Shown: piece by piece, positions 860-23,065 of the stretch
Layout of the letters: each line of letters opens with the position of its first letter
Numbering within the stretch: the stretch's first letter is position 1
Source: a virus
Length of the DNA: 42,052 nt
Strand: one strand, 5' to 3'
Virus record (IMG/VR): IMGVR_UViG_3300047629_000038
Location: 1 to 42,052 of that record
Notes under the pieces: generated by a model
What the model was told of the DNA's origin: nothing
Databases searched by the model: none
Seen by the model: the letters and a program-made list of their open reading frames with translations, nothing else
Made by a program: the position numbers and the translations under genes

Positions 860-2317
860 ATGCCTTTCGTCGAAGTCGAAATAACGCAGAACGAACAGAT
901 GATCCGCGAAGAAGGCGTCGCGAAGCTCAGGGAACTCCTCGAAGCGCGCGGGATCGCCGGCTGGCAGCCGAACGAAGCGGACCTCACCGTGATCGTCCTC
1001 TCGACCGTCGCCTCGATGGTCCCGAGCGTCGCCCAGATCGCGGCCGTCGTACCAGCCGCCATCTTCCGCAAGTATGGCACCGAACTGGTCAAAACGCCCT
1101 ACAACGAAGGCGCGGCTGCGACCGTCACAACTAAATGGAAGCTCCTCGAAGAAGGCGGCAAATACGCGCCGCACACGATCGAAGCGGGGACGCAACTGAC
1201 GATCGGCACCCTCGCGTTCTACGTTCAGGCGAACGTCTCGGTGAAAGAAGGCGAATCCGAAGCGACCGCGGTCCTCGTGGCCTCAGAACGAGGAACGGAA
1301 TACAACGGACTCACCGGCACCGTCGAACTGGTCGACGCCATCTCCTGGGTGAAAGAAGTCCTGATCGTCGGCGAAACGACGGGCGGCGCGAACCAGGAAT
1401 CCGACGAAGAATACCAGAGCCGGCTCGCGGCCGCCCTCAAGCTGCAAGCCCCCCGCCCGATCACGGCTGCGAACTTCGCCGAAATGGCGCTCCAGGTGCC
1501 TTCCAACGCCGTGCCGGCGGGGATCGACGTGGGGCGCACCACCGCCATCGACGGCTTCAACCCCGAAGCTCACAAATTCAAAGGCGAAATCGAAAACGGC
1601 AAAACCACGGTCAAAGCCGTGACGAGCTTCACCGGGGTGTCCTCCGAATCGAAATCGCTCCCCCAGATCCATCCCGGCACCGAAGTGTCCGGGACCGGCA
1701 TCCTCGCTGGCACGACCGTGGTCAGCGTGAACGAAGGTGCGAAAACGCTCATCCTCAGCCTCGCCGCGACGAAAACGGAAACGACCGAATTCACGACGAA
1801 AGGCAGCTACGAAAACCAGCGCACCGTGACCGTGTTCGTCACTGAAGACGCAGGGAAAGCCCTTAGCGCAGAAGCGATGGAGGCGATCCAGGACTACCTC
1901 GAAGAATTCAGGGAGCTCAACTTCGTGGTCTTCGTCGAACCGGCCTCCTACAACGAAGTCCGCGTGACGACACAGATCCACGTCCTGCCGGGGTACACCG
2001 AAGCGTCGGTCGTGGCGAACGTCAAAACGGCGCTCGAAAAGTACCTCAGCCCCGAAACCTTCGGCAATCCGACCGGGCAGACGACCGGCGCCAACTCGTG
2101 GCTCAACGCGACACAGGGCTACAACATCGTGCGCTACAATACGCTCCTGGGCGTGATCGAGGCCGTCCCGGGGGTGCAGTACGTATTCGCCGGCAGCACG
2201 GGGCTGGCGGTCGGGCTGGAAGAAGCCCCCGGCGTGAAAATCGCCGACCTCACGCTGCGGGGCCCGGCTCCCCTGCCGGAAACCAAACCTGCCAACATCG
2301 TCGTCACGAGCGCCTAG
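860..2317 (+). CDS. Baseplate J-like protein
   Basis: A 485-residue protein starting one base after the preceding TGA, so translation is probably coupled. The N-terminal half has the baseplate J/gp47 style: a helical start, then a beta domain around residues 95-180 ending in the typical GGANQESDEEYQSRL motif, where the loop with D/E-x-x-Y/L-R is a J-family hallmark. Residues about 235-310 look like an inserted beta-sandwich (VSGTGILAGTTVVSV), a module frequent in virion proteins. The C-terminal half returns to the J fold (VTVFVTEDAG, VQYVFAG). It would form the baseplate wedge with its neighbours. Glu and Lys codons are mostly GAA/AAA here, unlike the early genes. Confidence 0.8.
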   Translation: MPFVEVEITQNEQMIREEGVAKLRELLEARGIAGWQPNEADLTVIVLSTVASMVPSVAQIAAVVPAAIFRKYGTELVKTPYNEGAAATVTTKWKLLEEGGKYAPHTIEAGTQLTIGTLAFYVQANVSVKEGESEATAVLVASERGTEYNGLTGTVELVDAISWVKEVLIVGETTGGANQESDEEYQSRLAAALKLQAPRPITAANFAEMALQVPSNAVPAGIDVGRTTAIDGFNPEAHKFKGEIENGKTTVKAVTSFTGVSSESKSLPQIHPGTEVSGTGILAGTTVVSVNEGAKTLILSLAATKTETTEFTTKGSYENQRTVTVFVTEDAGKALSAEAMEAIQDYLEEFRELNFVVFVEPASYNEVRVTTQIHVLPGYTEASVVANVKTALEKYLSPETFGNPTGQTTGANSWLNATQGYNIVRYNTLLGVIEAVPGVQYVFAGSTGLAVGLEEAPGVKIADLTLRGPAPLPETKPANIVVTSA

Positions 2318-12348: not shown

Positions 12349-12370
12349 TTTTGGCTTAGATAAGCCAAAA
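12349..12370. repeat. Perfect inverted repeat before the IS transposase
   Basis: TTTTGGCTTA (12349-12358) and TAAGCCAAAA (12361-12370) are separated by GA. It could be an operator-type dyad or part of a terminator protecting the IS from read-through transcription. Confidence 0.5.
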
Positions 12371-12402
12371 GGACCCCCGCGCGGGTGGCACCGCCGGGGG
12401 CC
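12371..12402 (+). promoter_or_regulatory. GC-rich leader hairpin before the IS transposase
   Basis: GGACCCCCG pairs with CGGGGGCC. It is followed by TGGATCAGGAGTCGAAGCC just before TCC and the ATG at 12426. AGGAG lies 11 bases from the ATG and can pair with CTCC next to it. The leader at 16213-16270 has nearly the same layout. Confidence 0.45.
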
Positions 12403-12425
12403 TTGGATCAGGAGTCGAAGCCTCC

Positions 12426-13552
12426 ATGACCTCGCCAAACGTACCACGGCGATCCGTCGCCGCTGACCTCGCAGCGATCCTCAACTCCCCGGAGGTCGCA
12501 CGTCTCATCGATGACCTTCAGGAAACCCGCTTGACGGGCCGACCGGGCTACCCGATCCGCAGCATGGTGGCGATGATGCTCACCAAGAGCCTCTACGCGC
12601 TGCCGACGTGGACGCGCACTGTGGCGCTCGTACGGGAGCACCCCGCGCTTGCGGCGGGATCGCCCCGGACGGCGACGTTCCTTCCCATTGGGCGTGCTAC
12701 CGCTTCACGGCGAAGCTACGGGAGCACGTGACCGCGCTGGAGGAGTGCATCGCGTCCGTCATCCGGGCGCTCAAGAAGGCCAACCCGCTGCTCGGCTGGG
12801 ATGTGGCGATCGACGCCTCCGACATGCCCGCGTACGCGAACGGCCAGCGCTACAAGTACAAGGGTGGCCCGGAACGCGAGAAGTACAGCGACCCGGACGC
12901 CTCGTGGGGCCACCGCTCCGCCGTCTCGACGCGGAAGGGCGGCGGGTTCTACGGGTACCGCCTCCACATGGCGGTCTGTGCGAACACAGACCTCCCGCTC
13001 GCGTGGAAGGTGGAGACCGGGCGCATGAACGAAACCCCCACGGTCGCGCCGCTGCTCGACAAGCTGCACGCGCTCGGAATCGACCCGGAGACCTGCATGA
13101 TGGACGCCGGGTACGACAACGTAACCGTCTACGACGCTTGCGCCGAGCGAGAGATCGCCCCGGTGATCCCGCTCCGTGAAACCCCCGCCGTCAAGCGCGG
13201 CGACCACAAGCCGCCGTGCTGCAAGCACGGCGAGTGGCGGTTCGCCGGGGCCGACCACAAGCGCAAAGCGACCAAGTGGCGCTGCCCCGCCGGGGAGTGC
13301 AAGCCCGCATCCGTGTGGATCAAGTCTGACCGCCTCCATCCGTTGATCCCGCGCGAGACGCCGCGCTGGAAGGCTCTCTACCGGGGCCGTGCGTCCGTGG
13401 AGCGCGCCTTCGGCCGCGCCAAGAACGAATGGGCACTCGCGCCGCTCCGCGTGCGCAGGATCGAGCGGGTGCGGCTTCACGCCGACCTCACGATCCTGGC
13501 GCAGCTTGCTTGCGCGTTGCATCGGGCGCAGACGGTCGCGCAGGCGGCTTGA
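12426..13552 (+). pseudogene. IS transposase (DDE), interrupted by a frame change
   Basis: The N-terminal part reads from ATG 12426 (PGYPIRSMVAMMLTKSLYA... LVREHPALAA). The rest is in the -1 frame (DGDVPSHWACYRFTAKLREH to the end). The two joined give one continuous transposase of about 375 residues; the switch lies near 12650-12660 in GCGGCGGGATCG. Catalytic residues are visible: Asp in AIDASD, Asp in MDAGYDN, Glu in ASVERAFGRAKN. A Cys cluster (CCKHG, RCPAGEC) forms a zinc-type insertion. No classic A6G slip site is present, so a mutation or sequence error is as likely as programmed frameshifting. Confidence 0.75.
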
Positions 13553-15631: not shown

Positions 15632-16072
15632 ATGAACTATTGCATCGAGTGCCGCCAGAACTTCGCGGGCGCCGTCCGCAACCGCTTCCTCCAACCCTCC
15701 TGCCCGACCTGCGGCTCCAGCGCCATCCTTCCCGCCAAGCCCGAGCCGTTCGTCGTCTACGACCCACCAGATCCCACCCCTTTACCTCCGCCTCACTGCC
15801 GCGACCGGCTGCGACCCCGAGGTCTGCGTCGCAACTCCGACCTCGTGCCGCTTATAGCTGCGCGCGACGGCTGGGAATGTCATATCTGCGGCGAGCCCAT
15901 TGATCCCGCCGTGAACCCCAACAGCCGGGTGGGAGCGACCATTGATCACCTGATGCCCCTCAGTGAGGGCGGAAGTCGTTGGCGGCGCTCCAATATGAGG
16001 CTTGCGCACCGTGGCTGCAACAACGCGCGGGGCAGCCAACCGGCGAGGATGCTGCGGGCTTCCATTCCTTGA
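15632..16072 (+). CDS. HNH endonuclease with N-terminal zinc ribbon
   Basis: A 146-residue protein from ATG 15632; longer in-frame starts exist upstream to 15542 but lack similarity. An N-terminal zinc ribbon (YCIECRQNF and CPTCGSS, residues 3-31) precedes an HNH domain: CHICGEPID, ATIDHLMPLSEGG with the DH catalytic pair, NMRLAHRGCNNARG with the last zinc-type Cys. HNH proteins nick or cut DNA; beside terminases they aid packaging, elsewhere they may be homing enzymes. It runs away from the lysogeny operon. A stem GCCTAC/GTAGGC lies in its leader near 15582-15609. Confidence 0.75.
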   Translation: MNYCIECRQNFAGAVRNRFLQPSCPTCGSSAILPAKPEPFVVYDPPDPTPLPPPHCRDRLRPRGLRRNSDLVPLIAARDGWECHICGEPIDPAVNPNSRVGATIDHLMPLSEGGSRWRRSNMRLAHRGCNNARGSQPARMLRASIP

Positions 16073-16097
16073 CATCACCGGGAAATGCGGGCATACT
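16069..16097 (+). promoter_or_regulatory. Promoter for the winged-helix/XRE pair
   Basis: TTGACA (16069-16074), 17 bases, CATACT (16092-16097). The -35 overlaps the HNH stop codon. The transcript would start near 16104, beginning with a 6-bp stem GTTGGC/GCCAAC (16102-16120), then the shared element at 16141, then the leader hairpin at 16213. Confidence 0.65.
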
Positions 16098-16140
16098 TAC
16101 TGTTGGCAGGGAGAGCCAACCGGGAGAGAGAGCCAGGATG

Positions 16141-16169
16141 GGCAAGTATGTCTTCAGAGCACGTACATT
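16141..16169 (+). repeat. Shared leader element, copy 1
   Basis: A 29-base sequence starting GGCAAGTATGTCTTCAGAGC and continuing ACGTACATT. It is identical to 22471-22499 and 23 of 26 bases match an inverted copy at 18897-18922. Ten to twenty bases further on, both direct copies also share TTCGCGG(G)CTAGGTT. It lies in the untranslated leader of a winged-helix gene. Confidence 0.8.
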
Positions 16170-16212
16170 TCGGGCCGTTCGCGGGCTAGGTTCTCAGCAT
16201 CCATCACCAAGC

Positions 16213-16246
16213 GGCTCCGGCACGGGTGGTGTCCCGTACCGGAGCC
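16213..16246 (+). promoter_or_regulatory. GC-rich leader hairpin before winged-helix gene 1
   Basis: GGCTCCGG (16213-16220) pairs with CCGGAGCC (16239-16246); inside, ACGGG pairs with CCCGT. Then AGGAG (16254-16258) lies 12 bases before the ATG, with CCTCC between them able to mask it. The layout equals that before the IS transposase at 12426. Confidence 0.5.
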
Positions 16247-16270
16247 TGGACACAGGAGACGATGCCTCCC

Positions 16271-16531
16271 ATGCCTGACGAGAACCCTACCCCTACCGTC
16301 GCGGAGCGGTTCGACGCGATGGAACGCGACGTGCTGTACCTGCTCACCGGAGACGACCTGCCGATCTGGAGCGTTGAGGACCTCGGCCGGGACCTCGAAG
16401 CCCCAGCCGGTGCCGTGGACGCTGTACGGGGGCTCCACAACGCCGGGCTGATCCACAAGACCAGCGACGGGTTTGTGTTCGCGACCCGCGCGGCGTTCCG
16501 TCTCGTTGAGATGGTCGGCCAGGTCGTCTGA
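16271..16531 (+). CDS. Winged-helix DNA-binding protein 1
   Basis: An 86-residue protein. ATG 16271 is preferred to ATG 16262, which is too close to AGGAG. The sequence RDVLYLLTGDD, then WSVEDLGRDLEAPAGAVDAV, then LHNAGLIHKTSDGFVFATRA shows helix-helix-recognition helix-wing order of a MarR/ArsR-style winged helix. It resembles the gene at 22601 in layout, size and leader. It overlaps the XRE gene by one base (TGATG). Similar proteins paired with an XRE gene are, from memory, common in Thermoleophilia chromosomes. Probable transcription regulator. Confidence 0.65.
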   Translation: MPDENPTPTVAERFDAMERDVLYLLTGDDLPIWSVEDLGRDLEAPAGAVDAVRGLHNAGLIHKTSDGFVFATRAAFRLVEMVGQVV

Positions 16532-16761
16532 TGGGCGAGTCCGAGTCCACGTCGGAGCTGGTCGCGTTCGGCCGGCGGCTTCGTGCCGTACGCAAGGAGC
16601 GCGGCGTCTCTCAACGCGATCTCGCCATCCGAACTGACATGTACGAAACGGAGGTAGGTCGCTATGAGCGCGGCGGGCGCGAGCCCAGGCTGACGACGAT
16701 CCTCCGTCTCGCTCGCGGCCTGGACGTGCTGCCCGGCGAGCTGTTGGACCCGCTCGTCTGA
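16531..16761 (+). CDS. XRE-family HTH regulator (second one)
   Basis: A 76-residue protein: FGRRLRAVRKERGVSQRDLA, IRTDMYETEVGRYERGGREP, RLTTILRLARGLDVLPGELL. A full HTH_3 domain, with recognition helix around ETEVGRYERG. Translated by overlap with the winged-helix gene. As a rightward counterpart of the leftward XRE repressor it may form the other half of a genetic switch, or it may be an independent regulator captured with its winged-helix partner. A strong terminator follows. Confidence 0.75.
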   Translation: MGESESTSELVAFGRRLRAVRKERGVSQRDLAIRTDMYETEVGRYERGGREPRLTTILRLARGLDVLPGELLDPLV

Positions 16762-16772
16762 ACGCCCGCAGG

Positions 16773-16803
16773 GGCGCCACGCCGCAGGGCCGGGCGTGGC
16801 GCC
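16773..16803. terminator. Strong bidirectional terminator
   Basis: GGCGCCACGCC (16773-16783) pairs perfectly with GGCGTGGCGCC (16793-16803), followed by TTACC. It separates the rightward XRE gene from the convergent transposase ending at 16816. Confidence 0.75.
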
Positions 16804-16815
16804 TTACCATGCCGT

Positions 16816-17751
16816 TCAGGCTGGCTTCTCGACGCGATCCAGCATCGCCCAAAACATAGGCTGTTCGGAGAACCGCCGGTTGTAGCGAAAGGCGTACTCG
16901 TCCAGGTAGTTCTGTAAGTATTCGACGCTGATCGAGTGGTAGACGCCCCGGACGCCGTTCTTGAACAAGCCGAAGAACCCCTCGACGGTCTGCGTGTGGG
17001 TGTCCCCTTCGACGTAGACTTTGGCCGAGTGCTTGATCCGACGGTGCCCCCTGTAGCTCTTGCCGACGGTCTTGTAGGCGTCCCACTGGTCCGTGAACAG
17101 CATCGAGGACGGTAGGACGTGAGCCTGTACCGCAGCGGAGAGCGCGGGTGCGCCACGATCCGCGATCACGGCAGGACGCACCCTGCCGCCGCGCTCGACC
17201 GCCGCGAAGATCGTCGGCCGGTAGGTCTTCCGTAGATGCCCCCGTTTGGTCCGTTTCTCGTGCGCGCGGGGTTTGCCGCCGTAGGCCGACTCGTCCGCCT
17301 CCACGTCCCCGGAGAGCGGGCCTTGCGCCTCGTCGGAGAGAAGCGTCCTGATCTGCTTGAACATCCGATGCGCTGTCTTGTACGTCACGCCGATCTCGCG
17401 TTCGAGCTGCTTGGCGCTGATCCCGCACCGCGTCGAGGACATTAGATATATCGCGAAGAACCAGAGCTGCAAGCTGACCGTCGTCTTGTGCATGATGGTC
17501 CCGCTCGTCGGGTAGACGTGGTGTCCGCAGTACTGGCAGGAGTACGCCGAGCGGCCCGTGATCCGGTGGAACTTCGACGCCTTCCCGCACTTCGGGCACT
17601 CCGTCCCATCCCCAAAAAACTTCGCCTTCAAGTACTCCAAGCACGCATCGTTGTCCGGGAATAGCTCCAGAAAACGGTTGTACGTCATCGTGCTTTCGCT
17701 CGATGGCGCGGGGGCTACGGAGTCTCGTGATCTTGCGGCCATCCTCCGCAT
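16816..17751 (-). CDS. IS1595-family transposase
   Basis: About 311 residues from ATG 17751; TTG 17778, ATG 17742 and ATG 17688 are alternative starts. An N-terminal zinc ribbon (CPKCG...YSCQYCG) is followed by an HTH-like segment, and the IS1595 DDE core: VEADESAYGG, FTDQWDAYK, and EGFFGLFKNGVRGVYH near the end. These are all diagnostic. The reading frame is intact, so it may be active. I could not find clear terminal inverted repeats, so the IS ends are undefined. Its promoter overlaps the stop of the small gene upstream. Confidence 0.85.
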   Translation of the reverse strand: MRRMAARSRDSVAPAPSSESTMTYNRFLELFPDNDACLEYLKAKFFGDGTECPKCGKASKFHRITGRSAYSCQYCGHHVYPTSGTIMHKTTVSLQLWFFAIYLMSSTRCGISAKQLEREIGVTYKTAHRMFKQIRTLLSDEAQGPLSGDVEADESAYGGKPRAHEKRTKRGHLRKTYRPTIFAAVERGGRVRPAVIADRGAPALSAAVQAHVLPSSMLFTDQWDAYKTVGKSYRGHRRIKHSAKVYVEGDTHTQTVEGFFGLFKNGVRGVYHSISVEYLQNYLDEYAFRYNRRFSEQPMFWAMLDRVEKPA

Positions 17752-17778
17752 GATACCAAACACAAGTACGTGTGTCAA
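17750..17778 (-). promoter_or_regulatory. Promoter for the IS1595 transposase
   Basis: On the minus strand TTGACA (17773-17778), 17 bases, TATCAT (17750-17755). The -35 box overlaps the stop codon of the gene 17775-17939. Transcription from it would begin just before ATG 17742, so that or ATG 17688 would be the start in such an mRNA. Confidence 0.6.
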
Positions 17779-17939
17779 GTATCTTTAGGGTGCTCTAGCT
17801 TCTCTTTTGCTTGGTTCGTTGCTGCCCGTTCGAGGTCGCGCAGGAAGTCAGCCTCGGTGTGCTTGGGGTCCTGTAGCTCGGTCACATCCGACTCCGGGGG
17901 AGTCGGCTCGGTCTTCTCCGGGCGCTTACGTGCAGGCAT
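17775..17939 (-). CDS. 54-residue helical protein
   Basis: ATG 17939 with GAGGGGGTGCCCGT upstream. A Lys/Pro/Glu-rich first half precedes an amphipathic helix (ADFLRDLERAATNQAKEKLE). Small proteins ending in a FLRDLxRAxTNxAKExL-type helix are, from memory, frequent in Thermoleophilia genomes. Its stop is inside the transposase promoter and touches the possible TTG start, so the transposon inserted exactly at its end or the two are co-expressed. Function unknown. Confidence 0.5.
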   Translation of the reverse strand: MPARKRPEKTEPTPPESDVTELQDPKHTEADFLRDLERAATNQAKEKLEHPKDT

Positions 17940-17970
17940 ACGGGCACCCCCTCGCTGGTCGATACAAAAT

Positions 17971-18006
17971 GGTAGACACTCGGACGGTAGGGTGGTAGGC
18001 TGGTAG
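17971..18006. repeat. Iterated GGTAG motif
   Basis: GGTAG occurs at 17971, 17986, 17994 and 18002; the last three are spaced 8 bases apart. They lie between the tRNA-like sequence and the small leftward gene, where that gene's promoter should be. They could be a regulator-binding cluster. Confidence 0.45.
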
Positions 18007-18017
18007 AACGCGAAGTG

Positions 18018-18086
18018 TGGACCGGGAGGGGATCGGACCCTCGTTCGGAGGGCTAAGTCTCCAAACGTGCACCAGCTACCCGGCCC
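18018..18086 (-). other. tRNA-like fold with abnormal anticodon arm
   Basis: On the minus strand GGGCCGG pairs with CCGGTCC (7-bp acceptor with one G-U) and is followed by an unpaired A. A T-arm GAGGG/CCCTC has the loop TCCGATC (one change from TTC-R-A-N-Y). The middle is not normal: GTTTGGAG and CTCCGAAC form an 8-bp stem around the 8-base loop ACTTAGCC, the D-arm is only about 2 bp, and there is no variable loop. It may be a decayed tRNA, an attachment-site remnant, or a tRNA mimic. I do not assign an amino acid. Confidence 0.4.
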
Positions 18087-18116
18087 ATGTATCGCGTGTT
18101 TTTGAGATGCAACGGG

Positions 18117-18170
18117 CCCGGAGCCGCGCCCCCTACTTTTCCGGGATGGAGGCGCGGCTCCGGGGGTTTT
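18117..18170 (+). terminator. Long hairpin with T-run
   Basis: CCCGGAGCCGCGCC (18117-18130) pairs without mismatch with GGCGCGGCTCCGGG (18151-18164), followed by GGTTTT. This is the best intrinsic terminator of the window, working rightward; read leftward it lies between the gene ending at 18231 and the tRNA-like fold. Confidence 0.7.
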
Positions 18171-18230
18171 ATGTCGTCCCCAGCCCCAGCTAGGACATGC
18201 AGGGATCGACGGTGGTATCTATCTTCATGA

Positions 18231-18809
18231 TCAAGGTTGCTCACTGCCTCCAGCAAGTAGATGGACCGGGGCGGCGGCGGCAACCTCTCGGCGCGGTGTC
18301 CGCTTCTTCGCCGGGCTCACCGGCCCATGCCCCTTGGCGAAGTTCTCGCCCGGCACCGTCGGCTTCCAACGGCCGATGGCACCGGCGCTCTGCATGTATC
18401 CCTTTGTCTTCGCGTTGCCGAAGGCTGCCTTCCATTTCGCGGGCTTGCGCAGAGCGAGAGCATCGTAAATGCGCTCGGCGGTGGCGAAGTCCATGCCATC
18501 CATGCCAGCCTCGATGCCAGCCTGAGCGATCACGGTTACGCGCTCGATGTCGGATGTCGCCCCCACGCGCGCAAGGCGATCCCCAAGCACCTTCGGATCG
18601 AGCGGATCGTCAGAGTTCCCAGTCAGGGGCGCGAGGGCCTTTCCTCCTCCGTTGTTGCCCCCGGGTGGTGGCGGGAGTTGGTTGACCCCGAGCGTCTCAA
18701 CGAAGCCCGGCATATCGGTCAGCAGGGTCGTGAACCGATCGAAGGATGGCTCGTCCCCCTCGAAGCTAAGTTCGAGCCCGCTCGGCAGCTTGATCATGAC
18801 CTTCATCAT
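18231..18809 (-). CDS. Hypothetical protein, leftward
   Basis: A 192-residue protein. The N-terminal 35 residues (MIKLPSGLELSFEGDEPSFD, then RFTTLL) look like a small strand-strand-helix unit. A Pro/Gly/Asn-rich linker (PPPPGGNNGGG) then leads to a C-terminal domain of about 90 residues (ERVTVIAQAGIEAGMDGMDF and RKPAKWKAAFGNAKTKGYM). The C-terminal part looks like a DNA- or protein-binding helical module with conserved Trp/Lys. It is the first gene left of the divergent region that holds the inverted element copy. No family is recognised; a regulatory role is possible. Confidence 0.5.
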   Translation of the reverse strand: MMKVMIKLPSGLELSFEGDEPSFDRFTTLLTDMPGFVETLGVNQLPPPPGGNNGGGKALAPLTGNSDDPLDPKVLGDRLARVGATSDIERVTVIAQAGIEAGMDGMDFATAERIYDALALRKPAKWKAAFGNAKTKGYMQSAGAIGRWKPTVPGENFAKGHGPVSPAKKRTPRREVAAAAPVHLLAGGSEQP

Positions 18810-18896
18810 CGCGGCAGCAGTCTAGCACCCTCGGTCCTAGAAAAGTGCGCGACGGCTTTCTTGGGGACTTGGAGAGCTTTAGACGAACATCAGTTC

Positions 18897-18922
18897 GTAC
18901 GTGCTCTGACTACACACTTGCC
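18897..18922 (-). repeat. Shared leader element, copy 3 (inverted)
   Basis: Read on the minus strand it starts GGCAAGTGTGTAGTCAGAGC and ends ACGTAC; 23 of 26 bases equal copies 1 and 2. It points toward the leftward gene starting at 18809. Unlike the direct copies it is not followed by the CTAGGTT extension. Confidence 0.7.
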
Positions 18923-19005
18923 CGAGGATGCACACGGTTGTCGGTATCCCTATTGCCCGGGGTGCGTAGTTTCCCCGGATTCTGCTACGGTGCCCGGCCG
19001 CAAGG

Positions 19006-19037
19006 CGCCCCCGCGCTGCTGCAAACAGCCGGGGGCG
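19006..19037 (+). promoter_or_regulatory. GC-rich leader hairpin before the integrase
   Basis: CGCCCCCG (19006-19013) pairs with CGGGGGCG (19030-19037), inner GCTG/CAGC. It is close in sequence to the hairpin at 22544-22574 (both contain CCCCCGCGCTG ... CAGCCGGGGG). It lies 77 bases before the integrase ATG. Confidence 0.5.
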
Positions 19038-19114
19038 TGACGACGCGACGGTTGGGGTCGCGGCGCGCCCGGGACGATACCAGCGCGTCGCAGCACCCAA
19101 GGAAGGGGTAGGCG

Positions 19115-20104
19115 ATGCGGTGGGAACAGGCCATCGAGGAGTACCTGCGGGACCAGCGGCAGGCCGGGAGGATCAACAGCGAGGAATCGGCGCGGTCCTA
19201 TAGGCGAGCGCTCATGCTCCACGCGCAGGACACCCCGGCGGGGCCGTTGGCCTCGACGCGGGAGGATATGAAGCGCACCCTCGCCCGGTGGTCGTACCCG
19301 AACACCCGGGCGTTACAGCACTCAATCCTGACGAGCTTCTACGACTGGACCTTGACGGAGGGCCTGCGGCAGGACAACCCGGCGCGCCAGGTCGCCAGGG
19401 CGAAGACACGCAAGCCGACGGTCGCGCGGCTGACTCGCTGGGAGGTCTTGGCGATGATCGCTGCTTGCGAGACGACTCGGGAGCGGCGGCTGATGCTGCT
19501 CGGAGCCTGTGCTGGCGCCCGGGCGGTGGAGCTAAAAGGGTTCCAAGGGCGGCACTTCGACCGCCCCGGATTCGTCTGGTTCTCGCCGGACATCGCGAAG
19601 GGCAAACGAGAACGGTGGGTGCCGGTGCTGCCCGAACTGGAGCCCGTCATCGCAGACATCCGCGCCACGGTCGGCGTCAACGACGTCGTGATCCGGGCGT
19701 GCGACAACAGTGGACGCAACCAGCGCCCCCCGACCTACAAGATCAGCCACAATGCGCTCGGCGCTCTCGTCGCCAGGATCGCCCACCGCGCCGGGATCGC
19801 CCGGCACGTCACGCCGCACCTACTTCGCCACGCCTTCGGGGACCATATCGCTCGGCACGCTGGCCTCAGAGCCGCACAGGCGATGATGGGCCACGCGAGC
19901 GTCAACACCACGGCGAGCGTGTACGTGGACCGCCCGGGCCTGGAGGAGCTGGCCGCGAGCGTGCAGGGCCTCCGGTTCGGAGAGGAGCCCATCGAGCGGC
20001 GCCGGGAGCGGTTCGAGAGGCAGACGCGAGCGGCTCAAAAAAATTATGCTGGAGCCCTTGACATGGGCGGGGAGGGTACGGTACGATGGCTCATCGCACG
20101 GTAA
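19115..20104 (+). CDS. int: Tyrosine recombinase (phage integrase)
   Basis: A 329-residue protein with AAGGAAGGGG before ATG 19115. An N-terminal SAM-like core-binding domain spans residues 1-90; the catalytic domain from about 105 has Arg136 (GARAVEL), Lys164 (AKGKRERW), HLLRH with His235 and Arg238, His260 (MMGHASVNTT) and nucleophile Tyr270 (ASVYV). All catalytic residues are present, so it should be active. About 55 residues follow the Tyr, longer than usual. No arm-binding domain is obvious, making it a simple XerC/D-like integrase. It would recombine attP with a host site; the site is not identified here. Confidence 0.85.
   Translation: MRWEQAIEEYLRDQRQAGRINSEESARSYRRALMLHAQDTPAGPLASTREDMKRTLARWSYPNTRALQHSILTSFYDWTLTEGLRQDNPARQVARAKTRKPTVARLTRWEVLAMIAACETTRERRLMLLGACAGARAVELKGFQGRHFDRPGFVWFSPDIAKGKRERWVPVLPELEPVIADIRATVGVNDVVIRACDNSGRNQRPPTYKISHNALGALVARIAHRAGIARHVTPHLLRHAFGDHIARHAGLRAAQAMMGHASVNTTASVYVDRPGLEELAASVQGLRFGEEPIERRRERFERQTRAAQKNYAGALDMGGEGTVRWLIAR
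20058..20087 (+). promoter_or_regulatory. Promoter inside the integrase 3' end
   Basis: TTGACA (20058-20063), 18 bases, TACGAT (20082-20087). It would start transcripts near 20094, just before the integrase stop, driving the gene at 20178 and those after it. Confidence 0.6.
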
Positions 20105-20110
20105 CAACGG

Positions 20111-20140
20111 CTGTCGGGCGGTAAGATCCATTACCGACAG
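20111..20140 (+). promoter_or_regulatory. Leader hairpin after the 20058 promoter
   Basis: CTGTC (20111-20115) pairs with GACAG (20136-20140); GGTAA pairs with TTACC inside. It forms right after the predicted transcript start, 38 bases before the TTG at 20178. Confidence 0.45.
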
Positions 20141-20177
20141 ATAGAACGCCACTAACAACTGGAAGAAGGGTAGTCCA

Positions 20178-20636
20178 TTGCCCCAAGACACCGCGATTGG
20201 CCCGAACCCGTCGGGACTCTGCATGTGCGGCTGCGGCACAAGAACTCCCCTTGCGGCCAATACGCGGGATGGCAACGTCCAAGGGCTTCCCACGCGCTTC
20301 CTTGTCGGCCATCGCGCCTCGATGCGCGATATACGCGACCGCATACGCCGGTTGCCCCACCCCAACCCCACGGGTCTTTGCTTGTGTGGGTGCGGGCACC
20401 CCTCTACCTCTGTCGAGACGGCGCCCCTGACCTACCGGCCGAAGCTGGAGCAGGAGCGCGCAGCGGAGCAGCTTGAACATGCGATACAGGCCCACGAATG
20501 GCTCGCGGTGCTGATGCAGGAATCCGACGCGATTCCGTTTAGCGTGTCGCCCTCGCGCTTCCCCAAGGCGAAGCGCCCATTACGCCGTACCGCTCCGGTG
20601 GTCGTCACCCAACTCACGGACCTGGAGGCCGCGTAA
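20178..20636 (+). CDS. Protein with two CGCG-type Cys motifs
   Basis: A 152-residue protein; start TTG 20178 after GAAGAAGGG. Two similar units, [17 protein letters not shown] (residues 10-26, followed by [12 protein letters not shown]) and [16 protein letters not shown], carry the C-x-C-G-C-G pattern seen in many actinophage proteins, where the unit C-terminally ends in R-F-x-x-G-H. A zinc-binding role is probable. Here the second unit is cut short and followed by a helical, then Pro/Arg-rich end. Its stop overlaps the next start (TAATG). Function unknown; DNA-binding is possible. Confidence 0.55.
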
Positions 20637-21403
20637 TGACTCCCCTTGTACAAGACCGTCTCGCGCAGCTGGACAAGCTGATGCTCGACCGGTCAAACCA
20701 CACGAGTTTCGAGGACGGCCACTGCGCGACGGAGCTGGTGTCGTGGCTCGCCGATGAACCGTTCAGCGACCATCCGGCTTGCCTGTCCCCAGTCCTCGGC
20801 GCGTTCCTACGCAACTGGAATGACAGCTTGGACGACGAGAGACGCCAGAAACTCAAGCCGTTCCTGCCGCGCACCATCGGGACTGCTGGGGACGGACATG
20901 ATGAGGAGCGCGCGTGGCTCGTTACGGACTGGCTCGTTCGCGTCTGCGCCCCCACGTGGCTCGAACTCGCTGGGGTCGAGGAGTCGCCAGCAGCGCTTCG
21001 TGCGCTTCCTCCGTTGATGGATGGGGATGCCGCGCGTTCCGCGCAGGCCACGATCGAAAAGGCGAGGAAAGAGGGGGCAGCCGCCAGGGCAGCCGCTGGG
21101 GCAGCCGCTGGGGCAGCCGCCTGGGCAGCCGCTGGGGCAGCTGCCAGGGCAGCCGCCTGGGAAGCTGCCAGGGCAGCCGCCTGGGCAGCCGCTGGGGCAG
21201 CCGCTGGGGAAGCCGCTGGGGAAGCCGCCAGGGAAGCCGCTGGGGCAGCCGCTGGGGAAGCCGCTGGGGAAGCCGCTGGGGAAGCCGCCAGGGAAGCCGC
21301 CTGGGCAGCCGTTGAGCCGACGAAGGTGGAGTTGCAGGCATCGGCCTTGGTGCTACTGGGGAGCATGATCAGCCTCGGCGAATCGGAGCGGGAAGTGTCA
21401 TGA
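20636..21403 (+). CDS. Helical protein with a long Ala-rich repeat
   Basis: A 255-residue protein. Residues 1-140 are a helical domain (VTDWLVRVCAPTWLELAGVE is a recognisable phrase of a phage/actinobacterial family of unknown function). Residues about 145-225 are built of AAxAA units in which the variable residue is G, R, W or E, encoded by near-identical 12-base repeats. They should form a long amphipathic helix. The last 25 residues are ordinary again. Related proteins vary in repeat number, suggesting slippage. No enzymatic motif. It lies between the Cys-motif gene and the recombination protein. Confidence 0.55.
   Translation: MTPLVQDRLAQLDKLMLDRSNHTSFEDGHCATELVSWLADEPFSDHPACLSPVLGAFLRNWNDSLDDERRQKLKPFLPRTIGTAGDGHDEERAWLVTDWLVRVCAPTWLELAGVEESPAALRALPPLMDGDAARSAQATIEKARKEGAAARAAAGAAAGAAAWAAAGAAARAAAWEAARAAAWAAAGAAAGEAAGEAAREAAGAAAGEAAGEAAGEAAREAAWAAVEPTKVELQASALVLLGSMISLGESEREVS
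21078..21308 (+). repeat. Imperfect 12-base tandem repeat (GCAGCCGCTGGG-type)
   Basis: About 19 units of 12 bases such as GCAGCCGCTGGG, GAAGCCGCTGGG, GCAGCCGCCTGG and GAAGCCGCCAGG, all in frame and coding Ala-rich tetrapeptides. Units are intermixed, as expected after repeated unequal exchange. Confidence 0.8.
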
Positions 21404-22461
21404 GCGCCGCCGAGCAGATACCAGAGGCCGAGATCGTAGAGGAGGAGGAGCCACGCGAGGCTGTCTCCACTGCTCTAGCCGTGCGCCCCGGTTCGACTGA
21501 CCTGATCCGCGCTGCCTCCCCAGCGGAGCAGATCGAGAAGGCTGTCGAAATGGCGACGGCGCTTGACAAGATCATCAAAGACCGGGGTATGCGCACCAAG
21601 ATGGGCCGGCGGAAGGTCGTGAAGCCCGACGGCAGTGAGGTATGGGAGGACAGTTACCACACGAATGTGGAGGCGTGGCAGACCCTCGCCACGTTCCTCC
21701 GGGTGGCGATCGTCCCTGACGATCCCGAGCCAATACGCGATGACGAGGGGAATGTCAAGTTCGTCTCCTACGAGGTCGCCCGCGAGGTCTACCCCAAAGG
21801 CACGAAGGGGGCGCAGATTCGCAGCGGGAACGCGGTCCCCGAGCATGTCGAGCACGCGATGGTAGAAGGCGCCGAGGGGTTCACCTGCCGGTGCCTCGTC
21901 TACAAGGATGGTGTCGTTGTGGGCGCGGGGTCCTCGCGTTGCACACGTCTGGAGGAAGCGTGGCGCTCAAAGCCCGACTATGCGCTCGAAGGGATGGCGC
22001 AGACCAGGGCGATCGGCCGAAGCATGGCAACCCCCGGACGCTGGATCGTGACCCTAGCGGGATACAACGGTACGCCCGCGGAGGAGATGCCTCCCCAATT
22101 CGAGCAGGAGCCTATCGAGGCAGGCCCGAAGCACGGGCCAGCCGCGGTAGACCAGCAGCTCGCCAATACGCGCCTCGCTCTGGGCTATCTACTCAGCTGT
22201 GAGCCTGACCAGAACCCGGTCGGTGCGATGCTGAACGAGATTGAACGTCGCGCCGGAGGGTATCTGCCGCACCTGCCGCTCGCCACGATCTCACTCGCGG
22301 CGCAGGCAGTGAAAGACCGCCGCGAGCGGCAGAAGGCGAAGGCGACCACGAAGGCATTGCCCGACCGCGCTCTTGATGCTGCCGCCGAGGAGTTCACACG
22401 AGACCCCGACATGGAGCGCGCCGAAGCCATTCTCGCAGCGGAGCACGGAGCGCAGGCATGA
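21400..22461 (+). CDS. Phage recombination-type protein (possible ssDNA-annealing function)
   Basis: A 353-residue protein overlapping the previous gene (ATGA). The central part follows a pattern I associate with an actinophage family found in recombination loci: HTNVEAWQTLATFLRVAIVP, then RCLVYKDGVVVGAGSSRCTR, then YALEGMAQTRAIGRSMATPG and IVTLAGYNGTPAEEMP. The M-A-Q-T-R-A...G-R/K-A and ATPAEEMP-like phrases are shared with RecT/Erf-style neighbours. The C-terminal 110 residues are helical and variable. An annealing role is inferred from this resemblance and from integrase nearby; no exonuclease partner is visible. Confidence 0.5.
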   Translation: MSAAEQIPEAEIVEEEEPREAVSTALAVRPGSTDLIRAASPAEQIEKAVEMATALDKIIKDRGMRTKMGRRKVVKPDGSEVWEDSYHTNVEAWQTLATFLRVAIVPDDPEPIRDDEGNVKFVSYEVAREVYPKGTKGAQIRSGNAVPEHVEHAMVEGAEGFTCRCLVYKDGVVVGAGSSRCTRLEEAWRSKPDYALEGMAQTRAIGRSMATPGRWIVTLAGYNGTPAEEMPPQFEQEPIEAGPKHGPAAVDQQLANTRLALGYLLSCEPDQNPVGAMLNEIERRAGGYLPHLPLATISLAAQAVKDRRERQKAKATTKALPDRALDAAAEEFTRDPDMERAEAILAAEHGAQA

Positions 22462-22470
22462 AGATTGAAC

Positions 22471-22499
22471 GGCAAGTATGTCTTCAGAGCACGTACATT
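22471..22499 (+). repeat. Shared leader element, copy 2
   Basis: Identical over 29 bases to 16141-16169 and followed by TTCGCGGCTAGGTT (22509-22522), also shared. It starts nine bases after the stop of the recombination-type gene and leads into the second winged-helix gene. Confidence 0.8.
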
Positions 22500-22543
22500 C
22501 TGCGGCTTTTCGCGGCTAGGTTTGGAGGGTCCTCTAACCGATT

Positions 22544-22574
22544 GCCCCCCGCGCTGGTTGGACAGCCGGGGGGC
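22544..22574 (+). promoter_or_regulatory. GC-rich leader hairpin before winged-helix gene 2
   Basis: GCCCCCC (22544-22550) pairs with GGGGGGC (22568-22574) with inner GCTG/CAGC. It ends 26 bases before the ATG at 22601. Nearly the same hairpin precedes the integrase and, on the other strand, the secreted-protein gene. Confidence 0.55.
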
Positions 22575-22600
22575 GCGGCACCGAAAGGCGGTACCTTCCG

Positions 22601-22864
22601 ATGCAGTCCGAATCCAAGCAGTTTCCCGACGGCGAGCCCGCGACGGAGCGCATCATCGTGTTGCAGTTCCTCCGCAAGGACCGCTCCGAATGGTGGTCCC
22701 GGACGGAAGTGCTGCGCAAACTGCGCGACATCGACCCGGACGCGGTGCGGGGGTCCTTGGCGCACCTGGAGCGCCTTGGGCTGCTCGACCGCGCTGGCGC
22801 GCGCTTCAAGGCGTCCGACGGGCTGCGGTACATCGATGTCGTCCTCGACCTCATCTGTCTGTGA
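22601..22864 (+). CDS. Winged-helix DNA-binding protein 2
   Basis: An 87-residue protein: ERIIVLQFLRKDRSEWWSRT, EVLRKLRDIDPDAVRGSLAH, LERLGLLDRAGARFKASDGL. Same helix order, size and W-S-x-x-(D/E)-(L/V) phrase as the protein at 16271, so the two are probably distant paralogues sharing the upstream element. It would bind DNA, perhaps at that element. It opens the long early operon (22.6-31.7 kb). Confidence 0.6.
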   Translation: MQSESKQFPDGEPATERIIVLQFLRKDRSEWWSRTEVLRKLRDIDPDAVRGSLAHLERLGLLDRAGARFKASDGLRYIDVVLDLICL

Positions 22865-22894
22865 TGGTGGGCGTAACTTTCGGGCAGCGCCTAC

Positions 22895-23065
22895 TTGCCG
22901 ATTGAACTGGACCTGACTAAGAACGAGCGTGCCGCGATGTTGAAAGCGAGTGTCCGTAAATGCGGTCGCGGCCATGCGTCCTACCACACGCTGACCGAGC
23001 AGGCCGTGGAACGCAAGTTGCATGAGGCGATCCGGCGAGCGGAGGAGAAGAAGGCCCATGCCTGA
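22895..23065 (+). CDS. 56-residue basic helical protein
   Basis: Start TTG 22895 (ATG 22937 is an alternative). Residues DLTKNERAAMLKASVRKCGR and TEQAVERKLHEAIRRAEEKK give two charged helices. Its end overlaps the next gene by 8 bases. No family recognised. Confidence 0.45.
   Translation: MPIELDLTKNERAAMLKASVRKCGRGHASYHTLTEQAVERKLHEAIRRAEEKKAHA

Follow-up and report, generated by a model that had tools for sequence, protein, structure and literature searches.

The IS1595 family of insertion sequences, which encodes ISXO2-like transposases, comprises the groups IS1016, ISPna2, ISH4, IS1595, ISSod11, ISNwi1, and ISNha5, with a zinc ribbon in all but IS1016. Its members usually make 8-bp target duplications and carry the zinc ribbon, and the related Merlin elements have GG tips (PMC8101967). 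One member, ISApl4, has GGGG tips and 8-bp repeats, and pseudo-compound transposons of the IS1595 type are known (PMC12561309). Mobile insertion cassettes (defined in PMC3913671), such as MIC231 of Bacillus cereus and the qnrD mic element, have inverted ends and a target duplication around a gene that is not a transposase. Here we describe a virus record (IMGVR_UViG_3300047629_000038; all 42,052 bases are called the window below) in which a short repeat occurs three times, at 16141, 18897, and 22471. An earlier note had suggested that this repeat may be an operator or RNA element for a winged-helix or XRE protein, or else that its direct copies could be recombination sites around an integrase. 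We find instead that the three copies are very probably the ends of two IS1595-type insertions, one large and one small, in a phage whose nearest relative is the genome G001. Coordinates are collected in Table 1.

Three copies of a repeat

The two direct copies are identical over all 29 bases, and the inverted copy matches copy 1 at 23/26 positions, just as the earlier note had it. The further shared stretch it mentioned is also present: ungapped extension carries the direct copies to 52 bases at 83 per cent identity (16141-16192 and 22471-22522), with CTAGGTT as the last shared letters. Dinucleotide shuffles give an expectation of zero matches to the repeat, and a search of the window at up to three mismatches found no fourth copy. 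The tips read GGCAAGT/ACTTGCC, with 8-bp direct repeats outside them.

As also reported before, both direct copies lie in the leaders of small winged-helix-type genes (16271 and 22601), with a GC hairpin after each copy. The leftward gene 18231-18809 has copy 3 about 90 bases upstream. This setting could suggest a phage operator, with three regulon sites for the XRE (16531) or a winged-helix protein at three promoters. Two copies are indeed just upstream of regulator genes, at an equal distance from a TAGGTT box, and by inspection the repeat holds an imperfect dyad. However, each of the three copies stops precisely at a transposon tip flanked by a target duplication, homologous winged-helix genes elsewhere have no such repeat upstream, and the distance of copy 3 from its gene also speaks against an operator. 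The repeat is absent from the L010, L011, and L012 records and from G001, so the earlier note's element does not recur there with its gene context. We consider it very unlikely that the repeat is primarily an operator; binding of the ends by a regulator may be a secondary role.

Table 1. Features of the two predicted insertions in the window (. = no strand assigned).
Feature	Position	Strand	Evidence
Left target-site duplication CCAGGATG, large transposon	16133..16140	+	7/8 match to 18923-18930; aligns with empty site in G001
Predicted IS1595-family transposon, 2,782 bp	16141..18922	.	Inverted repeats at both ends, transposase within, 8-bp flanks; missing in G001
Copy 1, left terminal inverted repeat (IRL); putative -35 in last six bases, TACATT	16141..16169	+	Sequence; promoter by inspection
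Putative -10 TAGGTT, 17 bases past TACATT	16187..16192	+	Sequence; predicted promoter
Structured leader RNA, ending in the ATG of 16271	16197..16273	+	Covariance model 69.7 bits; covariation
Leader helices: P1 16213-16246; P2 16255-16258 (GGAG, Shine-Dalgarno) paired with 16266-16269 (CTCC)	within 16197..16273	+	
Passenger winged-helix-type regulator gene, 86 aa	16271..16531	+	Homologs in viruses and Solirubrobacterales
Passenger XRE-type helix-turn-helix regulator gene, 76 aa	16531..16761	+	PF13560, PF01381
GC hairpin, probable terminator	16769..16808	+	95% identical to that of IS1-like element in L010
IS1595-family transposase, 308 aa	16816..17742	-	PF12762, PF12760
Gene without assigned function, 192 aa	18231..18809	-	Homolog in related IS1595-type element L076, 46% identity
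Copy 3, right terminal inverted repeat (IRR)	18897..18922	-	23/26 to copy 1
Right target-site duplication CGAGGATG, large transposon	18923..18930	+	7/8 to 16133-16140
Phage open reading frame (ORF), split after fourth codon by small element; 56 codons with flanks joined	22458..23065	+	ATGA overlaps upstream stop
Left target-site duplication GATTGAAC, small element	22463..22470	+	8/8 to 22900-22907
Probable 429-bp mobile cassette without transposase	22471..22899	.	Tips GGCAAGTA/TACTTGCC, 8-bp duplication without mismatch, ORF restored on joining, missing in G001
Copy 2, IRL of small element; putative -35 in last six bases, TACATT	22471..22499	+	Sequence
Putative -10 TAGGTT, small element	22517..22522	+	Sequence; predicted promoter
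Structured leader RNA, small element	22528..22603	+	Covariance model 53.5 bits
Passenger winged-helix-type regulator gene, 87 aa	22601..22864	+	Family profile 21.8 bits
IRR tip of small element, inward reading GGCAAGTAG	22891..22899	-	Sequence
Right target-site duplication GATTGAAC, small element	22900..22907	+	8/8 to 22463-22470

Two probable insertions and their empty sites

Around the genes of the large element, a scan for inverted pairs bordered by an 8-bp duplication returned 16141/18922 as the sole pair. Its inverted repeats start with GG (GGCAAGTATG / GGCAAGTGTG, 23/26); read inward from the tips, the sequences are GGCAAGTATGTCTTCA (copy 1) and GGCAAGTGTGTAGTCA (copy 3). The transposase contains the catalytic domain DDE_Tnp_IS1595 (PF12762, E = 1.4e-35, positions 1-153 of 153) and an N-terminal zinc ribbon (PF12760, E = 1.6e-11). 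Judged by these two domains, the GG tips, and the 8-bp duplication, the element belongs to the IS1595 family. It differs from the described members in its 2.8-kb length, its winged-helix and XRE passengers, its unassigned gene and tRNA-like stretch, and its carriage by a phage.

We found transposase relatives in 35 of 232 genomes from the order of G002, the genome of a Solirubrobacterales metagenome-assembled genome with a winged-helix homolog; none was found among viruses. Several of the closest lie in elements of 2.1-3.5 kb with 8/8 duplications and similar tips (GGGAAGTAGGTA, GGCAAGTATCCC, GGCAACTGTCAA/GGCAAGTATCAG). The IS1595-type relative L076 has a gene for an 18231-protein homolog as well.

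Three smaller features were seen within the large element. A tRNA-like cloverleaf lies at 18017-18086 (-), and the related IS1595 element L077 has a tRNA with anticodon TAG at 1206-1274 (-), in a comparable place downstream of the transposase; the tRNA search at loosened thresholds was uninformative below 90 per cent. By inspection, CGAACATCAGTTCG at 18884-18897, adjoining copy 3 and upstream of the leftward gene 18231-18809, resembles a LexA (SOS) box. The transposase is preceded by a strong promoter-like TTGACA-N17-TATCAT at 17745-17775 (-), with two adjacent CAAGTA motifs that are present in the ends too.

The small element closes at 22899 with CTACTTGCC. Its sole gene is the winged-helix gene, and it has no transposase. 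Permuting the downstream sequence produced no such right end in 4000 trials. When the flanks of the 429-bp element are joined, they form a 56-codon ORF with an ATGA that overlaps the stop codon of the preceding gene; we found no homologs of this interrupted phage ORF. The two elements have the left end in common over 29 bases and the right tip over about nine. The right tip, GGCAAGTAGGC, resembles GGGAAGTAGGT of L074, whose transposase is 75-76 per cent identical. With its inverted repeats, target duplication, and lack of a transposase, the small element fits a mobile insertion cassette on sequence grounds. It differs from the described cassettes in having IS1595-type rather than IS231 ends, a cargo of an 87-aa regulator with a structured leader, and a length of only 429 bp. 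The cassette (IRL, leader RNA, winged-helix gene, IRR) was probably moved in trans by an IS1595-type transposase, which would recognise ends of 26-29 bp. We rejected its origin as a deletion derivative of the large element: the likeness is confined to the outer 52 bases, and BLASTP shows no similarity between the two regulator proteins.

G001 has 61,323 bases and a 127-base terminal repeat and is therefore apparently a closed genome. It is collinear with the window, except that window 16118 is joined almost directly to 18959, and this junction aligns with the joined window flanks of the large element. Both insertions are absent from G001, it has no copies of the repeat, and its second site is occupied by another gene.

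These comparisons bear on two further explanations. The earlier note's alternative was recombination between the direct copies (16141 and 22471) as possible integrase sites, with excision of 6.3 kb, and the copies do flank an integrase gene in direct orientation. Both, however, are left ends of separate insertions, each flanked by its own duplication, and G001 has the integrase (89 per cent identity) without the repeat; we give this explanation a negligible probability. A further possibility is a pseudo-compound transposon that carries the integrase and uses the left end at 16141 together with the right end at 22899. The two ends are correctly oriented for this, and there are IS1595-type precedents (PMC12561309). 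Yet wrong pairings of the four ends, this one among them, match at only 2/8 positions between the outside 8-mers, and the enclosed integrase region is ordinary backbone in G001. The integrase segment was therefore not moved here as a unit, and we regard a pseudo-compound transposon as extremely unlikely.

Three observations weigh against two IS1595-type insertions. The right end of the small element resembles its left end over only about nine terminal bases. The target duplication of the large element has one mismatch (7/8, compared with 8/8 in most relatives with located ends). In other viruses neither element turned up a second time, so mobility was not directly observed; viral contigs had no match to the exact 29-mer or a degenerate 23-mer, and phage records had neither similar DNA nor a winged-helix homolog. 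Taking all this together, we remain highly confident that the copies are transposon ends, and neither regulon sites nor integrase sites. In part the earlier note was right: the copies mark mobile DNA and probably include the promoter region of the winged-helix genes, but not as operators or integrase sites.

G001 has a promoter-like TTGACA-N17-CATACT, corresponding to window 16069-16097, that reads into the leader of the integrase. In the window itself the two parts (16069-16097 and 18931-19115) have the transposon, with its own terminator-like hairpin, between them, and this separation may impair or rewire integration.

Leader RNA and passenger regulators

Leaders of homologous winged-helix genes often contain TTGAC-N17/18-TAG or TAC. 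The window elements have TACATT instead, inside the terminal repeat, and the left ends are predicted to abut an inward promoter for the winged-helix gene in both elements. In our model, the left end would overlap the -35 of a promoter TACATT-N17-TAGGTT for the passenger regulators. The left ends would then be identical and placed before winged-helix genes because they double as the regulator promoter region. A 13-codon leader peptide that can be read in both direct copies (ATGTCTTCAGAGCAC...GGCTAG) was discarded: it has no Shine-Dalgarno at normal spacing, and the homologs show that the shared TAG is the -10 box, 17-18 bases past TTGAC.

After the -10-like TAG/TAC, the leaders have a GC hairpin (P1) and then a GRCAC linker, followed by a hairpin (P2) that pairs the Shine-Dalgarno with the bases immediately before the ATG. 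Among seventeen leaders aligned by sequence alone, 11/15 pairs changed on both sides, and no shuffle scored as high. P2 occurs as GGAG/CTCC, AAGG/CCTT, CAGGA/TCCTG, and AGGAA/TTCCT, and its strength exceeded that of shuffles in all but five of 3000 trials. Across sixty-eight sequences, in an alignment fitted to the model, 12/14 pairs covary. Rfam 15 gave no leader match at gathering score in the window and none at E <= 0.1 in ten loci. The earlier note's RNA element is in this sense real, as both leaders contain a structured RNA, but it lies downstream of the repeat; the GC hairpins behind the direct copies are part of this RNA. Like translational attenuators and RNA thermometers, it has a helix beside the start codon that pairs the Shine-Dalgarno; unlike them, it has no Rfam match and has a conserved upstream GC hairpin, the GRCAC linker, and varied downstream genes. 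P2 would hide the Shine-Dalgarno and limit translation.

The covariance model finds the leader in 111 of the 232 genomes of the order Solirubrobacterales and, in a sample of 396 genomes from the phylum, in forty. Small winged-helix genes follow most of the best-scoring leaders; other leaders stand before XRE, integrase, transposase, Cas1, and SWIM genes. Four loci (L126, L128, L131, L132; Pfam checked for L126 only) have it before Cas1-like genes, and L134 has it before an integrase. In the region 12356-13552 of the window, a second, weaker leader (28.8 bits) comes before an ORF whose product has a transposase domain (DUF772), and a DDE_Tnp_1 transposase ORF comes next; a like leader stands before a DDE_Tnp_1 ORF in L012. 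The integrase leader at 18991-19050 scored 10.9 bits only, and we do not claim it as a member of the family. A search for ends around most other leaders found no transposon, and control windows gave some weak matches of similar strength. Judging from these searches, the leader is therefore not in itself a transposon part.

The passenger proteins are less alike than the earlier note's 'similar' winged-helix genes would suggest. BLASTP gives no alignment between the 16271 and 22601 proteins, and a family profile matches the latter at 21.8 bits, so they are only distantly related. The 16271 protein has no Pfam match, and its structure model shows an H-H-H-E-E-H order with a mean pLDDT of 52, too uncertain for a fold search. 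Winged-helix homologs occur in 22/232 genomes of the order and in two other viruses.

Besides the small element, four elements with both ends located have a winged-helix gene just inside one end, pointing inward: the large window element, L078, L010, and L079. L078 is IS1595-like, L010, a virus contig, has an IS1-like transposase (PF03400) and different tips (GGTAGTGTCTCAG), and L079 has tips like those of L010. L078, L010, and L079 all have 8/8 duplications, with tips matching at 15/16, 15/16, and 16/16 positions, respectively. The large window element is laid out as IRL, leader RNA, winged-helix gene, XRE gene, and a terminator facing the transposase and a second small gene. L010 has the same leader RNA, winged-helix gene, XRE gene, and 40-bp terminator (95 per cent identity) inside one end. 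With the winged-helix gene just inside the ends of both IS1595-like and IS1-like elements, the regulator cassette is therefore, by this comparison, carried by different transposon families.

Elsewhere in the window, the ORF at 20636-21403 contains a long 12-base tandem repeat (21038-21361) that encodes an alanine-rich repeat.

Implications

What looked like a regulon site is better read as two transposon insertions in one phage. One separates the integrase from a promoter which, in the nearest relative, reads into it, and the other breaks a phage ORF. The transposition itself is nothing out of the ordinary; what stands out is the shared regulator-plus-RNA cassette, a cargo that occurs in unrelated transposons too and appears to be undescribed. 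We lean slightly towards a broader proposal drawn from these comparisons. An undescribed leader RNA would control translation of mobile-element genes (winged-helix regulators, transposases, integrases, and Cas1) in Solirubrobacterales and other Actinomycetota. Together with a winged-helix(-XRE) gene, it would form a cassette taken up, beside one end, by each of several unrelated transposon families and also existing in a transposase-free mobile form. The regulators may tune expression of the element itself or of nearby genes. With its clear covariation and no Rfam entry, the leader RNA is directly testable in laboratory strains. Unrelated transposons are repeatedly paired with the same small-regulator-plus-RNA-leader cassette, which suggests that regulated behaviour, of the element or of its surroundings, has been selected for.

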